A stretch of DNA of 64,000 bases from Arcobacter porcinus (GTDB lineage: Bacteria > Campylobacterota > Campylobacteria > Campylobacterales > Arcobacteraceae): the NCBI RefSeq assembly GCF_004299785.2, contig NZ_CP036246.2, positions 1,426,001-1,490,000 on the forward strand, read 5' to 3'. The translations under genes and the position numbers were made by a program. Positions 1 to 5,211 of this stretch are shown here, one piece after another (within the stretch, counting starts at the first letter, position 1; every line of letters starts with the position of its first letter). The notes under the pieces were generated by a model. That model had not been told where the DNA came from, did no database searches, and saw only the letters and a list, made by a program, of their open reading frames with translations.

Positions 1-1004
1 TTATTATTTTTAACAACACTAAGTTTTTGTAAATCTGATTCTAAAAATAAAATATCTGAACCATTTACTATTAAATACAAATTTTCATCTATATTACTAA
101 TATCATTTATCTGATACGATTTCTCAGATGAAGAAATTGCAACTGTAGTTGCCCAATTTTTTTTATATTTGAAAATATCACTTTTATCTGTTAATTTAAA
201 GTGCTTATCTTTTTTTGTAATCAAATTATATGAATCTATTCTCATATCAAAATCAATAATAGTTAATGATGAATTAGGGAAATTACCTAAAACAAATATT
301 TTATTATTAGATATTACTATTTTTTCTGGTCTATCAAAAATTTTAACTTGTTTTTCTATTTCTTGTGTATCCAAATTAATTAATACTATTTCAGACTCTG
401 CAGTTGATAATACGCAAAACTGTTTATTTTCATTTTCAAATACTTGTGCAGAAAGTATGGATGTATCAAAAGATATTGTCTTTAAATTTTCAAATGATTG
501 ATTTTTCCAAATAGAAACACTATTTTGAGTTGCTGAAACAAGATATAAATTATTTTTAGAAAACTGAACATAATTTACTGGATCAACTGAAGTTGAAATA
601 GTATTTATTATTTTCTCAGTATTGTAATTATAAATTCTTATATTCCCTGATTTACCATTATGTGTACTAAAAATACCACTTGATACTAAATATTTTTTTT
701 GAGTATCTAATGTTACATCAAAAACATTTCCTAAGACTCCTTCATTGATATAACCTGAAAATATTTTATAATTATTTGGATTTGAAACATTTTTTACAAT
801 TATATTTTTTTTATCAGCACTAACTAATATTAAATTATCATTTACTACTTTATAATTACTTACTACATTATTCTGAATATTTGTAGGTTTTAAATAAAAA
901 ATTTTATCCTTTTCAGATAAAGTCTCATTTTTCAATGTGCTAACATTAGAAACACATCCAACGAAAAATATACCTACAAATATGAATAATATAGTCTTAA
1001 TCAT
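1..1004 (-). CDS. Beta-propeller-like lipoprotein (3' end outside window)
   Basis: The frame starts with ATG at 1004 and is open to the left edge, so at least 334 codons are present and the C-terminus is missing. The N-terminus is a lipoprotein signal: a basic start, a hydrophobic stretch and a Phe-Val-Gly-Cys lipobox with Cys17. The rest has short repeating beta-strand units in WD40/YVTN style (for example a Ser-Ile-Trp-Lys turn and an Ile-Arg-Ile-Tyr-Asn strand), which suggests a beta-propeller; this is fold inference without a profile match. The ATG shares one base with the stop of the upstream lipoprotein gene (TAATG), so the two are translationally coupled. It is the last visible gene of an operon headed by the CARF nuclease at 5211. 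Homologous architectures can carry a C-terminal caspase-like domain, but that part would lie outside the window. Confidence 0.7.
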   Translation of the reverse strand, partial: MIKTILFIFVGIFFVGCVSNVSTLKNETLSEKDKIFYLKPTNIQNNVVSNYKVVNDNLILVSADKKNIIVKNVSNPNNYKIFSGYINEGVLGNVFDVTLDTQKKYLVSSGIFSTHNGKSGNIRIYNYNTEKIINTISTSVDPVNYVQFSKNNLYLVSATQNSVSIWKNQSFENLKTISFDTSILSAQVFENENKQFCVLSTAESEIVLINLDTQEIEKQVKIFDRPEKIVISNNKIFVLGNFPNSSLTIIDFDMRIDSYNLITKKDKHFKLTDKSDIFKYKKNWATTVAISSSEKSYQINDISNIDENLYLIVNGSDILFLESDLQKLSVVKNN

Positions 1005-2188
1005 TATTTTTCCATATCACTACATTCTTCAAATTTGAATCTTTTTGAAGTATCATCAATATTAATAAACTCTTTTGTAGGTTGCCAATCACTCCAACCA
1101 TTTTTCTTAGAAACTACAACTTTTTTTTCATCGCCATATTTTGAACAAAGTAAAGAGCCATTATTAAAATAAAAGTCTTGCATTCCTTTATCAGTTGGTC
1201 CTTTTTGAATATATTTACTTATCTCTTCAGAACACATATTAATAGGCAATATTAATTCATCAACTTTAGCTTCATCAAAATCTTTTTGATTGTATAAATC
1301 CATACAATCTCCATTATTAGAACCAAAAGTAAAATTACGAGTTATAACTGTCTGTGAATTCATCATTGATTTTAATGGTCCATTAATTCCATTATTTTTA
1401 TTTGTTGTTCTTGCAAGATTACTACAAATATTTTTATTCATTCGTTCAATAATTTTTTCATAATCTTTAGTATATTTTGCATCTTGTTTTTTACAATTTA
1501 TTACTTGCTTTGACACAGAATTTTCAATTGAACTTATTATTTCAGAATCAATAATTTTCCACTTTTCATTTTGTTTTTCTAAAATAACTTTTTTCTCTAA
1601 CTTCGTCCAACCATTATTCCAAGGAGCAAATAGATCAACAGCTATTGTTATTTCTTTTTTTACATTGCTAACTGATTTAGGTTTTATATCCATTTTAATA
1701 GCAGGAGGCAACAAATAATTTCTAAAAATTTCTGCTTTAATATATGATAATACTAAGTTGTCATTAGACATTTGTTTTATTTCATCTAAACTTTTATATT
1801 CATCAAATAAGTTATAACTCGTTTCAAAATATTTATATTTATAAACAACTTCCATAGAATTATACAACTCAACTGCCCATTTTTCTTTCAATTTATCATC
1901 TACATTTTCTAATATTCCGTCACTTTTTCGATAAATTGTATTAAAGACATGTTCATAAGCAATATATTCTGGAGTATTTATTTCATAATTAAATCTATAT
2001 TCTTTAGAATCTCGCAAATATTGGGTTTCTATATTTTTAGAACCTTGAAGATTTTGATTTGAAGATTTTAAATTTTGTTGAAAAGATATAAAATCTTCAA
2101 TATTCTTCTTTTTTTCTACTTCTGAAATAGTGCCACATCCACTTAATAATCCTGCAATAATAACTGGAAATATATATAATACTTTCAT
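1004..2188 (-). CDS. Hypothetical lipoprotein
   Basis: I do not recognise the family. The reading frame extends to 2218, but the ATG at 2188 is chosen because AAGGAG lies just upstream and because the product then begins directly with a lipoprotein signal ending in Leu-Ser-Gly-Cys. The mature protein (394 aa precursor) is hydrophilic, rich in Lys, Asn and Glu, with an amphipathic first half and several Cys residues in the C-terminal half (two near the middle, others in the last 100 residues). It is predicted to be membrane-anchored in the periplasm or outer membrane. The stop overlaps the start of the propeller lipoprotein by one base. The 77-bp gap upstream (2189-2265) holds an AT-only inverted repeat. 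Confidence 0.65.
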   Translation of the reverse strand: MKVLYIFPVIIAGLLSGCGTISEVEKKKNIEDFISFQQNLKSSNQNLQGSKNIETQYLRDSKEYRFNYEINTPEYIAYEHVFNTIYRKSDGILENVDDKLKEKWAVELYNSMEVVYKYKYFETSYNLFDEYKSLDEIKQMSNDNLVLSYIKAEIFRNYLLPPAIKMDIKPKSVSNVKKEITIAVDLFAPWNNGWTKLEKKVILEKQNEKWKIIDSEIISSIENSVSKQVINCKKQDAKYTKDYEKIIERMNKNICSNLARTTNKNNGINGPLKSMMNSQTVITRNFTFGSNNGDCMDLYNQKDFDEAKVDELILPINMCSEEISKYIQKGPTDKGMQDFYFNNGSLLCSKYGDEKKVVVSKKNGWSDWQPTKEFINIDDTSKRFKFEECSDMEK

Positions 2189-2221
2189 TTTAACTCCTTT
2201 AGTAAATTGTTTGTTCATCAG

Positions 2222-2246
2222 ATATTAATTAAAAAATAATTAATAT
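2222..2246. repeat. AT-only inverted repeat between two genes of the left-edge operon
   Basis: Arms 2222-2231 and 2237-2246 are perfect 10-base complements around a 5-base loop. The repeat lies between the FecR-like gene (stop at 2266) and the lipoprotein start at 2188. It could act as an intercistronic hairpin or weak attenuator, but it is all A/T, so chance occurrence in this composition is possible. Confidence 0.4.
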
Positions 2247-2265
2247 TAAAAATTTAATAATTTTT

Positions 2266-2868
2266 CTAGTTTATTTTTATAGTTTTAATTACTATACCAA
2301 ATCCATTAGTTATCTCAATATTATATGTTTTTTCTAAATCTTTGGCACTAACTATAAAATTTGTATATGTATCAGTTTCATTAGTTAATGACTTAATTAT
2401 TTTTCCCTCTTTATCTTTTATATTTAAAATAATTGGTAGAGGACCTGAAGATTCACTAGTTATTACAATATAGTTTTGTTCTGAATTAAGCAATATTGTT
2501 TCAACTTTATTATCGAAATTAATATCTTTACTTGAAACCCCATCTAAAACTTTTTCCTTTGAATTAGAAAATGATATTAATAAACTATTCTCCAAGTTTG
2601 ATACTAATTTTTTAAATATACTAGTATCTTTAATTTTTGTTTGTATACAATTGTTTTTATTAATTAATTGGATTGTATTGTCAATAATAATTCTTCCATT
2701 ACCTTCTTCATAACATATTGTTGAACCATCAACAAAAGACTTCTCATCCTCTTCGTTTAAAATGTATTTATCTCCATTTATACTAATTGTTACAGAACTG
2801 TCTTTTACAGTTAAGTTTCCTGCAAATAAAAGTGAACAATTAATTAAAATTCCAGCAATAAGTTTCAT
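2266..2868 (-). CDS. Exported FecR-like protein, 200 aa
   Basis: The N-terminus is a short signal peptide (hydrophobic stretch to about residue 16, Ala-Gly cleavage region). Residues about 18-70 follow the FecR-domain rhythm: alternating beta strands, a Phe-Val-Asp-Gly-Ser-Thr-Ile-Cys segment like the usual 'GD-x-I-x-T' turn, then a Gly-Arg-Ile-Ile-Ile strand. Residues about 110-200 look like a second beta domain. The start overlaps the stop of the CHASE2 gene by four bases. FecR-like proteins commonly sit beside CHASE2 proteins, which supports the reading. The FecR call is motif-based and moderate; a different small beta-rich periplasmic domain is the alternative. Confidence 0.55.
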   Translation of the reverse strand: MKLIAGILINCSLLFAGNLTVKDSSVTISINGDKYILNEEDEKSFVDGSTICYEEGNGRIIIDNTIQLINKNNCIQTKIKDTSIFKKLVSNLENSLLISFSNSKEKVLDGVSSKDINFDNKVETILLNSEQNYIVITSESSGPLPIILNIKDKEGKIIKSLTNETDTYTNFIVSAKDLEKTYNIEITNGFGIVIKTIKIN

Positions 2869-4169
2869 TTTTTTCCTTTTTTTAGTTTATTAAAAATTGA
2901 TTTTAGTTTAAATAATTCTGCCAATTCAATAAGCTGAAATATTATAAAAGGAACTATCCAATTAAACCACAAATTATAGTGTACTAAAATATAATTTGAT
3001 AAGAGTAATAAAATTACTCCAGATAATATTAATAATATCACAAACTCACTAATTTTATTACTTTGCCAACTAAATATTTCAAATATAATTTCTATAACTA
3101 AATCTATAAAAAAGAAAATTATTAATACTAATAATAGACCTAAGAAAATATTTATTTTTTCTAATTTACCATTTAAATAAAATTTAGTCATCAAAGCATT
3201 AGCTTGTACATCAATTCCATTTAAATCTGAAATTCCAAGTAATGATTCATTTTTAAAAACATCATCTTGAGAGAATGACCCACCAAAAAAAATTATTGAA
3301 TTTTTAAAATCTTCATCAATAATCATATTTAAAGGAAAATTTGCAGAATATTTGTTCAAATTAGCCCAATCGCTTTGATAATAACTAAAATCATTATTTA
3401 CATTTAATTTATTATAATCTCTAAATATTATTCTATTTTCTACTATATCATCTTTAGTTAAATCTTCAATTTCTAATTTTTTATCTTTAAACATATTAAA
3501 AATAGTTAAAGTGATATTTAAATATTTCTTATCTTTAAACTCTTTATATGGAGAATATCTTCTATTTATGTCATCATTAGATACAATTAATCCCACTGAT
3601 GAAAAAATAATATCTTTATTGCTAATAAGTTTTTGAATTTCAGGATCATCTAAATTTTCTATAAAATTTTGATTATTAGTTTTTGGAAATATAATTTTAT
3701 ATTTTCTTTGTTTTTTTAAAACATTGATTAATTTTTCATCCTCTATTGATAATTCAGTATTGTAATTAGTCGTTGTATAAGTCATATCATAATCAATAAA
3801 TAATACTTTAGGAATATTTTCATTAAGAGAATCCACATAACTATCAAGTTTTTCTATAAACGATGCAATTTTATCTCTAGGAAAAGTGTAACCATATATT
3901 ACTTCATTGTATTTATTTAATAAATTCTCTGATTTTAAATATTTATCATCAACAACAAATACTTTAATTTTTGGAGAAATAAATATTTTATCGTTAAAAT
4001 TAATAAAATATTTATTAGTTATATCAAAAGAAAAATCTTCTGCATATTTTCTAATAAATTCATGATTTGAAAATATATGAATAATTAAAAAAATTAGAGC
4101 TGCAAACAAGGCTTTTATAAAAGAAAATTTATAATATTTTAAAAATGCTAATTTAATTGAATTAAACAT
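2865..4169 (-). CDS. CHASE2-domain membrane protein without a cytoplasmic output domain
   Basis: This is a 434-aa protein. One transmembrane helix (about 17-34) is followed by a large extracytoplasmic region to about 335, then three closely spaced helices (about 339-365, 373-392, 398-418) and a short basic tail. The extracytoplasmic part has CHASE2 hallmarks: a strand with Val-Phe-Val-Val-Asp-Asp near residue 70, a Tyr-Thr-Phe-Pro-Arg segment, and a buried Phe-Ile-Asp-Tyr-Asp-Met strand near 125. In the known family, CHASE2 is a sensor joined to a cyclase, kinase or phosphatase. Here the chain stops after the last helix, so output must come from a partner. The start lies inside the last codons of the CARF nuclease gene (8-bp overlap). 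Confidence 0.7.
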   Translation of the reverse strand: MFNSIKLAFLKYYKFSFIKALFAALIFLIIHIFSNHEFIRKYAEDFSFDITNKYFINFNDKIFISPKIKVFVVDDKYLKSENLLNKYNEVIYGYTFPRDKIASFIEKLDSYVDSLNENIPKVLFIDYDMTYTTTNYNTELSIEDEKLINVLKKQRKYKIIFPKTNNQNFIENLDDPEIQKLISNKDIIFSSVGLIVSNDDINRRYSPYKEFKDKKYLNITLTIFNMFKDKKLEIEDLTKDDIVENRIIFRDYNKLNVNNDFSYYQSDWANLNKYSANFPLNMIIDEDFKNSIIFFGGSFSQDDVFKNESLLGISDLNGIDVQANALMTKFYLNGKLEKINIFLGLLLVLIIFFFIDLVIEIIFEIFSWQSNKISEFVILLILSGVILLLLSNYILVHYNLWFNWIVPFIIFQLIELAELFKLKSIFNKLKKGKK

Positions 4170-5211
4170 TAAACCAACTTTTAACTTTACTTAGAAAATC
4201 AATTTCACTAAATTCCTTTACTACATAAAAATTAATATTATCATTTTTCCCACGAGCTAAATCTTGATGTCCTATTATTTTATTTCCAACGCTTAAAATC
4301 ATACCCTTACTATCATCGTCTATATAATTTATAATTGAATCTGTTTTATATAGATATTCTGATGTTTTAAAATTATCAGTAAATTTACACTCAATAGTGT
4401 GAAGATGATTATCTTTCATGATTAGAATATCGATTTCATTATTGACATCTTTATCAAACTGAACTATAACACCCGTCATAATATCATCAACATCAAAATT
4501 ATCTTTAATAAGCCAATAAATATACTCCTCAAAAATACTACCTTTTACAAATTGTTCTTTATTTTCTCCCATCTGTTGAATTAAACCTTTATAAAAGCCT
4601 TTTGATGATTCTGTTCGTGTATAAGTATTTGCAAAATTTTTGAATTGTGAAAGATTTTGAGTAATCTCCTTTATTAAAGGTTTTCTTCTCTCTAGCGTAA
4701 ATCTATTTGTAAAACTAATTAAGTCATAACCTTTTAGTCTAAGATGATTTTTAATATCTATAATTTTTCCAACTTTATGTTTTGACATACTATTTTTTGA
4801 ATGTAGATTATAAGTGTTTGCATATCTATCATAGACTATTATATTTGAGCCTAATTCAAGCAGTTGGTTTGTTAAAACCAATGTAATTGAAGTTAATCCA
4901 TCAGTACTATTTAAAAAAATGTTTTTGGGATCTTTTGATTTTTGAATGATTTCTTTATAGCATTCTTGAATACTTTCAAAACTATCTTCTTTGACTTTTA
5001 TTGGAAGAATTTCAAAATTAAGTTTTCTACCATCTTGAGTTTCATAATTTGCAAGAAAAAAATCTTGACCTTTTAAAATCTTTTTTAATTGTTTAGTATC
5101 ATGTTCACTATCATCATATATTAAAATATGCTTGGCTATTTGTTCTTTAAATTCATAGAAAATTGGGAGTATAGATGAATGAAAATCACCAAGAATTGAA
5201 ACAAGAACCAA
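4162..5211 (-). CDS. Stand-alone CARF plus PD-(D/E)xK nuclease, Card1/Can2-like (DUF1887)
   Basis: This is a 349-aa protein of the length and layout of Card1/Can2 CRISPR ancillary nucleases. Residues 1-150 are an alpha/beta CARF-like domain starting with a short hydrophobic strand and carrying Asn101-Ser-Thr-Asp-Gly-Leu-Thr-Ser108 where the family usually has Asn-x-Thr-Gly-Gly-Thr-Lys. Residues about 215-349 are a restriction-endonuclease fold: a Gly-Ser-x-Phe-Glu-Glu helix (224-229), Asn-Glu-Ile-Asp (Asp261), then Glu274-Cys-Lys276. Known members are switched on by cyclic oligoadenylates from type III CRISPR complexes and cut nucleic acid. The start is TTG at 5211 with an AGGA site upstream; no ATG lies near the conserved N-terminus. 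No cas10, repeat array or ring nuclease is visible. It is the first gene of a minus operon and overlaps the CHASE2 gene by 8 bp. Confidence 0.75.
   Translation of the reverse strand: MVLVSILGDFHSSILPIFYEFKEQIAKHILIYDDSEHDTKQLKKILKGQDFFLANYETQDGRKLNFEILPIKVKEDSFESIQECYKEIIQKSKDPKNIFLNSTDGLTSITLVLTNQLLELGSNIIVYDRYANTYNLHSKNSMSKHKVGKIIDIKNHLRLKGYDLISFTNRFTLERRKPLIKEITQNLSQFKNFANTYTRTESSKGFYKGLIQQMGENKEQFVKGSIFEEYIYWLIKDNFDVDDIMTGVIVQFDKDVNNEIDILIMKDNHLHTIECKFTDNFKTSEYLYKTDSIINYIDDDSKGMILSVGNKIIGHQDLARGKNDNINFYVVKEFSEIDFLSKVKSWFNV

Follow-up and report, generated by a model that had tools for sequence, protein, structure and literature searches.

The 64,000-nucleotide stretch of the Arcobacter porcinus genome analyzed here (contig NZ_CP036246.2, positions 1,426,001 to 1,490,000; hereafter the window) carries on its minus strand, at positions 4162..5211, a gene for a protein in which a CARF domain is joined to a PD-DExK nuclease domain. 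The gene is intact and genuinely belongs to the CARF4 group (Can2/Card1/VC1899); its ligand loop departs from the usual form, and the alignment of its relatives indicates that this loop is a trait of a Campylobacterota subfamily rather than private decay. CARF domains are known to sense cyclic oligoadenylates. Bacterial defense-type nucleases of this kind normally become active when they sense a CRISPR alarm molecule; because the pocket is consistently different and CRISPR machinery is often missing from the genome, this branch may answer another signal. Together, the altered loop, the relatives fused to an NrN-like domain, and the frequent occurrence without type III CRISPR make two questions testable, i.e., whether a CARF domain can recognize other messengers and what produces the signal where a genome encodes receptors and no known synthase. 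The subfamily is already catalogued as the PADLOC model PDLC01891.

The window protein and its ligand loop

The gene opens with a TTG start codon and encodes 349 amino acids in an open frame. The protein matches the PADLOC model PDLC01891 (CARF4--CARF_PDDEXK) over its whole length (1-319 of 319; 502.5 bits, E 1.5e-151) and aligns with Can2, Card1, Cdn1, and VC1899 by phmmer and by a profile of 16 sequences; conversely, the subfamily profile aligns Can2 across both domains (E 7e-17). The N-terminal CARF domain, delimited by alignment with Can2, Card1, Cdn1, and 15 relatives, covers residues 1-165 (4717..5211, minus strand; boundary approximate), and the PD-DExK nuclease domain covers approximately residues 214-326 (4234..4572, minus strand), with a match to Pfam Card1_endonuc at residues 216-326 (E 7.3e-12).

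The ligand loop of the protein reads N101-S-T-D-G-L-T-S108 (4888..4911, minus strand). The counterparts are NVTGGTK in Can2 (7bdv), NITGGTK in Card1 (6wxw), and NVTGGTK in Cdn1 (8z4i), and profile alignment places N101-S-T-D-G-L-T107 in the position of NxTGGTK, as a preliminary description of this DNA had proposed. Of the two substitutions named there, the change from Gly to Asp stands, whereas the supposed change from Lys to Ser is in fact Lys to Thr, as Can2 Lys99 pairs with Thr107 in an ungapped alignment. Both the main chain and the side chain of Can2 Lys99 are described as contacting one phosphate of cyclic tetra-adenylate (cA4), and Ser19, Thr42, and Tyr118 are described as further contacts conserved between Can1 and Can2 (PMC7969007). 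The alignment to Can2 is reliable at the loop only. The GGTK loop with the cA4-contacting lysine is thus absent from the window protein, and the Lys and Gly changes do fall at ligand-contact sites, as had been supposed.

Conservation and spread of the subfamily

Twenty sequences were aligned, and 19 of them, including the window protein, were counted after the truncated homologue L044 was left out (L labels denote loci and G labels genomes). The divergence of the loop is not special to the window protein: N-x-[T/S]-D-G is complete in 14 of the 19 members, the exceptions being L013, L038, L041, L042, and L043. Position 104 is Asp in 17 members and Gly in two (L013 and L042), and position 107 is Thr, Val, Ala, Ser, or Gly, with Lys or Arg in none of the 19. 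The columns G8, S12, S13, N101, and N132, near or at the variant loop, are conserved across the subfamily (N101 in 17/19, N132 in 19/19), and this pattern speaks for a pocket that still functions. The nuclease residues E228, D261, E274, and K276, listed earlier as intact, are invariant in all 19 members, and so is E259, which had not been listed; E229, which had been, is not invariant. A subfamily-wide loop beside invariant catalytic residues would be expected if selection had acted on a pocket that is modified and functional, and not if function had been lost.

Matches were found in 6 of 104 genomes at the family level and in 18 of 397 at the phylum level, the genome of the window being counted in both; in carrier G016 the gene is represented only by a 39-residue piece at a contig edge. 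The closest relative found shares 87% identity with the window protein, and the genome of the window carries a second copy, paralogue L011, with 44% identity. On plasmids, relatives were found only on three same-size Arcobacter plasmids, and no relative was confirmed in viral contigs searched with the protein and with the alignment. A literature search retrieved no report of a ligand test on subfamily members. At L033 (L033:9803-10915) and L038 (L038:9858-10970) the gene lies among housekeeping-looking genes, next to genes that we take to be GroEL/GroES-like, and resembles a settled chromosomal gene.

In the tree, the window protein pairs with L010 (support 100/99), and the sister group of this pair comprises five members (62-96% identity) in which type III-B/CorA, MotAB-SAVED, and stand-alone contexts are mixed; the long-branch joins of L040-L043 are unsafe. 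It follows from this mixture that the module moves from one context to another, so that no single context reveals the ligand of all members. L012 and L031 are 96% identical and share the same WYL regulator, outer-membrane-like, and small genes (L012:8800-13356; L031:8939-13517). L031 has an adjacent type III-B module, and L012 lies in a one-contig genome without a RAMP match, so that the cassette also occurs in the absence of the CRISPR module.

Genomic contexts and candidate ligands

The genome of the window is a single contig of 2.02 Mb with a completeness of 100. A possible cas10 or type III locus elsewhere in this genome had been raised in the preliminary description, and the search returned neither a RAMP (type III) nor a Cas1 match, so that the type III cas genes expected in a genome with a type III ancillary effector were not found. 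Two hits to the Cas10-palm model (PF22335) carry GGEEF and were rejected as diguanylate cyclases. With regard to a possible role as a CBASS effector, which would call for a CD-NTase in the genome, there was also no match to SMODS (PF18144) in a search that did not cover mCpol and other CD-NTase families. RAMP matches occur in 6 of the 19 carrier genomes and in none of the other 13, including that of the window; in the phylum sample they occur in 6/18 carriers and 51/379 others (57/397 in total; Fisher p 0.03). A scan for CRISPR-like repeats detected arrays in 3 of 15 sequences (L014, L040, and L066), and none in the window, L011, or L017, most of the genome of the window lying outside the scan; none was found in the fetched stretches of the type III loci L031, L035, L015, and L082.

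We consider it somewhat probable that the protein works, like Can2 and Card1, as a dimeric nuclease gated by a ligand, and that its CARF pocket was remodeled in this Campylobacterota subfamily. In such a scheme, a stress or infection signal would prompt a putative synthase in the genome of the window to produce a nucleotide messenger, and this messenger would bind between two CARF domains through contacts other than that between Can2 Lys99 and a phosphate. The intact PD-DExK domains would then nick DNA and/or cut RNA, and the protein would probably be expressed together with the CHASE2/caspase-type genes behind it. The domain make-up, the catalytic residues, the loop change across the subfamily, and the layout of the operon are observed; dimerization, gating by a ligand, nuclease activity, a role in defense, and a synthase are putative. 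The scheme is favored by the full-length match to the subfamily model, the alignment with Can2, Card1, and Cdn1, the conserved loop and pocket columns, the invariant catalytic residues, and the 13 carrier genomes without a RAMP match. In addition, several homologues adjoin signaling or defense genes, namely type III CRISPR, CorA-NrN, TM-SAVED with MotA/MotB-like genes, and a Mokosh-like kinase/helicase operon. L010 and the fragment at L016 lie at opposite ends of the last of these (families assigned from L016; the L010 contig ends inside the third gene). Several observations weigh against this ligand-gated scheme. No synthase was found in the genome of the window, so the protein may have no ligand there, a situation proposed for VC1899; L013 has Gly at position 104, and Asp104 is therefore not essential; linkage between the CARF and CHASE2 genes was seen in the genome of the window only; and no neighbor was recognized by eye as a defense gene in the fetched stretches of L033, L036, L037, L038, and L039.

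The contexts point both to S-adenosylmethionine-AMP (SAM-AMP; CorA/NrN) and to cA4 (Csx20, Csx23). A different nucleotide signal, as suggested earlier, is accordingly possible and unproven; the ligand contacts are altered and probably not abolished, and SAM-AMP is a possible ligand. The strongest alternative, a serious one although short of even, is that cA4 or another cyclic oligoadenylate is still the signal of the subfamily, recognized by way of different contacts, and that the SAM-AMP neighbors reflect shared defense islands. L015 lies in a locus with Csx20 and Csx23, the L040 locus has Csx20 4.7 kb from the CARF gene, and G112, a third carrier, encodes Csx20 in a type III locus at another place in its genome; both L015 and L040 have the exact TDG loop. 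Csx20 is described as cleaving cA4 (PMC12409355) and Csx23 as binding it (PMC11229360), and Can2 and Card1 are described as cA4-activated (PMC7969007, PMC11229360).

A further pointer to cyclic oligoadenylates is the sensor gene beside paralogue L011 (L011:9654-15624, in the genome of the window and outside the window itself), a TM-SAVED gene of the CalpL-like group and SAVED4 type with homologues beside L013 and near L034. L011, L013 (74% identical to L011), and L034 have a common operon in which the CARF nuclease accompanies a gene that is presumably HEPN-like, a gene of 197 to 250 amino acids, and MotA/ExbB-like, MotB/OmpA-like, and TM-SAVED genes; the families were assigned from L011 and transferred to L013 and L034 by homology (blastp/phmmer), and at L034 three other genes separate the CARF gene from the rest. 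RAMP matches are lacking in all three genomes, and the SAVED gene of the paralogue operon has no match in plasmids. The L011-type operon combines two nucleotide-sensor-type genes and a Zorya-like motor pair with no recognized synthase, and its 603-amino-acid gene was detected in 3 of 397 genomes, each of them a carrier of the CARF gene. Against a cyclic oligoadenylate ligand stand the missing Lys99 equivalent in all 19 members, the fusions to NrN described below, and the lack of a type III source in the 13 RAMP-negative carrier genomes.

It is doubtful, but deserves weighing, that the subfamily ligand is SAM-AMP or a close conjugate, with the nuclease acting alongside CorA as a second effector; the loss of a phosphate-binding lysine and the gain of an acidic residue would fit a ligand with a positively charged methionine end. 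The CARF gene lies within a type III-B locus with a CorA-DHH phosphodiesterase fusion at L031 (an Arcobacter plasmid), L014/L064 (G011), and L035/L067 (G413); the fusion is of the PADLOC type DHH_CorA by scan at L031, and the other two were assigned as its homologues. At L014/L064 a CRISPR-like array (at least 23 repeats) stops approximately 375 bp before the CARF gene, and at L035 a protein of the N-formylglutamate amidohydrolase family (PF05013, 1e-45; L035:15436-16167) is encoded between CorA and the cmr-like genes. A fourth CorA-type III-B locus occurs in G394, where a truncated CARF gene lies on a separate contig. The Cas10s of all four loci have GLFHDRF, with Asp at 68-69, and an intact GGDD. 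In the CorA-1 group, Cas10s are reported to have a conserved acidic residue, D70, tied to binding of S-adenosylmethionine, and the same source describes nrn and corA as fused in Aliarcobacter butzleri and NrN as degrading SAM-AMP and not the cyclic oligoadenylates tested (PMC10600005); judged by position, the aspartate at 68-69 would equal D70.

Furthermore, two remote members, L041 (L041:79-1953, 624 amino acids) and L042 (L042:2533-4371, 612 amino acids), have a C-terminal NrN-like DHH domain (E 4e-63 and 1e-68, respectively) and adjoin CorA in genomes without a RAMP match. These CARF-PDDEXK-NrN fusions may represent CRISPR-free SAM-AMP-type signaling; a search of phages gave no match to the L041 fusion. 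An NrN region is present in 4 of the 19 carriers, and NrN (PDLC01149) was found in 1 of 259 phylum genomes, G228, itself a carrier (Fisher p 2e-5, with the non-carriers taken as the minimum of 241, given at most 18 carriers; the value is optimistic, as the genomes are related, and different probes served for the two groups). Strong effector-CorA matches occur in five of the 19 carriers (G011, G228, G394, G413, and G452), and five further genomes have weak CorA matches only (E 7e-7 to 9e-4).

A SAM-AMP ligand for the whole clade is weakened, however, by the cA4 markers at L015 and L040, by the Csx20-bearing locus of G112 and the TM-SAVED genes at L011, L013, and L034, and by the loops of the NrN fusions (D-I-T-D-A in L041, N-A-T-G-A in L042), neither of which is an exact TDG loop. 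The linkage to CorA/NrN and a SAM-AMP-type Cas10 was seen for L014, L031, and L035 and not for the window copy, whose genome has no NrN match and only a weak general CorA match; moreover, NrN-CorA occurs without an annotated CARF neighbor in Haliscomenobacter. In the literature searched, which did not include the main CARF classification (PMC7498327), no CARF protein was seen described as a receptor for SAM-AMP, and an updated CRISPR classification presents the SAM-AMP pathway as not thoroughly characterized, with CorA seemingly its signature (PMC12669027). An extension of this idea, which we regard as improbable, is that the TDG-type subfamily comprises receptors whose messenger is not an oligoadenylate but SAM-AMP or a related compound, and which switch on a DNA/RNA nuclease, that the remote members would bring their own SAM-AMP-type phosphodiesterase in a self-limiting design, and that CRISPR-free genomes, that of the window among them, would encode an undescribed synthase of the same messenger.

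Loss of ligand control, also considered in the preliminary description, would agree with the changed Lys99 equivalent, the lack of a known synthase in the genome of the window, and the precedent of VC1899, described as an orphan with weak activity and no cA4 regulation (PMC7969007), but is decidedly improbable and finds no support as a private change, because the loop and pocket columns are conserved and not drifting, the catalytic residues are invariant, and linkage to signaling loci recurs. Other messengers take the remainder of the odds.

The window operon and comparison with known systems

The CARF gene is the first of an operon on the minus strand. It is followed by a gene for a CHASE2-like membrane protein of 434 amino acids (2865..4169), whose first 8 nt overlap the end of the CARF gene, an exported-looking protein of 200 amino acids without a Pfam hit (2266..2868), which we take to be FecR-like, a lipoprotein-like protein of 404 amino acids with no family above the cut-off (1004..2218), and a WD40 and caspase (Peptidase_C14) protein of 1004 amino acids, the start of whose gene lies at 1..1004 and which leaves the window (L017:13990-17004). 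The CHASE2-like protein has no Pfam hit of its own; two of four scanned homologues match the CHASE2 model (L060 and L061, not L059 and L063). The pair of CHASE2 and 200-amino-acid genes recurs in L059-L062, with WD40-caspase genes also in L061 and L062, and the CHASE2 gene was rejected as a fixed CARF partner, since the stretches of five other CHASE2 homologues (L059-L063) have no CARF match. Coupled expression of the CARF gene with the CHASE2/caspase-type genes is likely; a common function is only possible. The cassette behind the CARF gene (window 1-4169 and L017:13990-17004) resembles an independent system for envelope stress or conflict. Further downstream there are a GmrSD-type gene and small genes that, we presume, look satellite- or phage-like. 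The number of promoter-like sites, 54, is close to the shuffled expectation (43.8, sd 5.5); these and the terminator-like sites (none found) are uninformative.

Loci of the SAM-AMP pathway (CorA, NrN, and CorA-1 type III-B) house some subfamily members, and two remote ones carry a fused NrN-like domain, although the described receptor of the pathway is CorA and not a CARF protein, and CorA is represented in the genome of the window by the weak general match alone. With Can2 and Card1 (DUF1887; CARF4, probably the recently named Crf4), the window protein shares the CARF and PD-DExK layout, catalytic residues, and size. The subfamily differs from them in its loop, mostly N-x-[TS]-D-G-x-[TVAS] instead of NxTGGTK, and in that 13 of its 19 carrier genomes lack a RAMP match. 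In VC1899 (1xmx) the lysine position is changed too, as in the window protein; it has Arg96 there, at a site reported as unfit for cA4 (PMC7969007), whereas the variant pocket of the subfamily is conserved.
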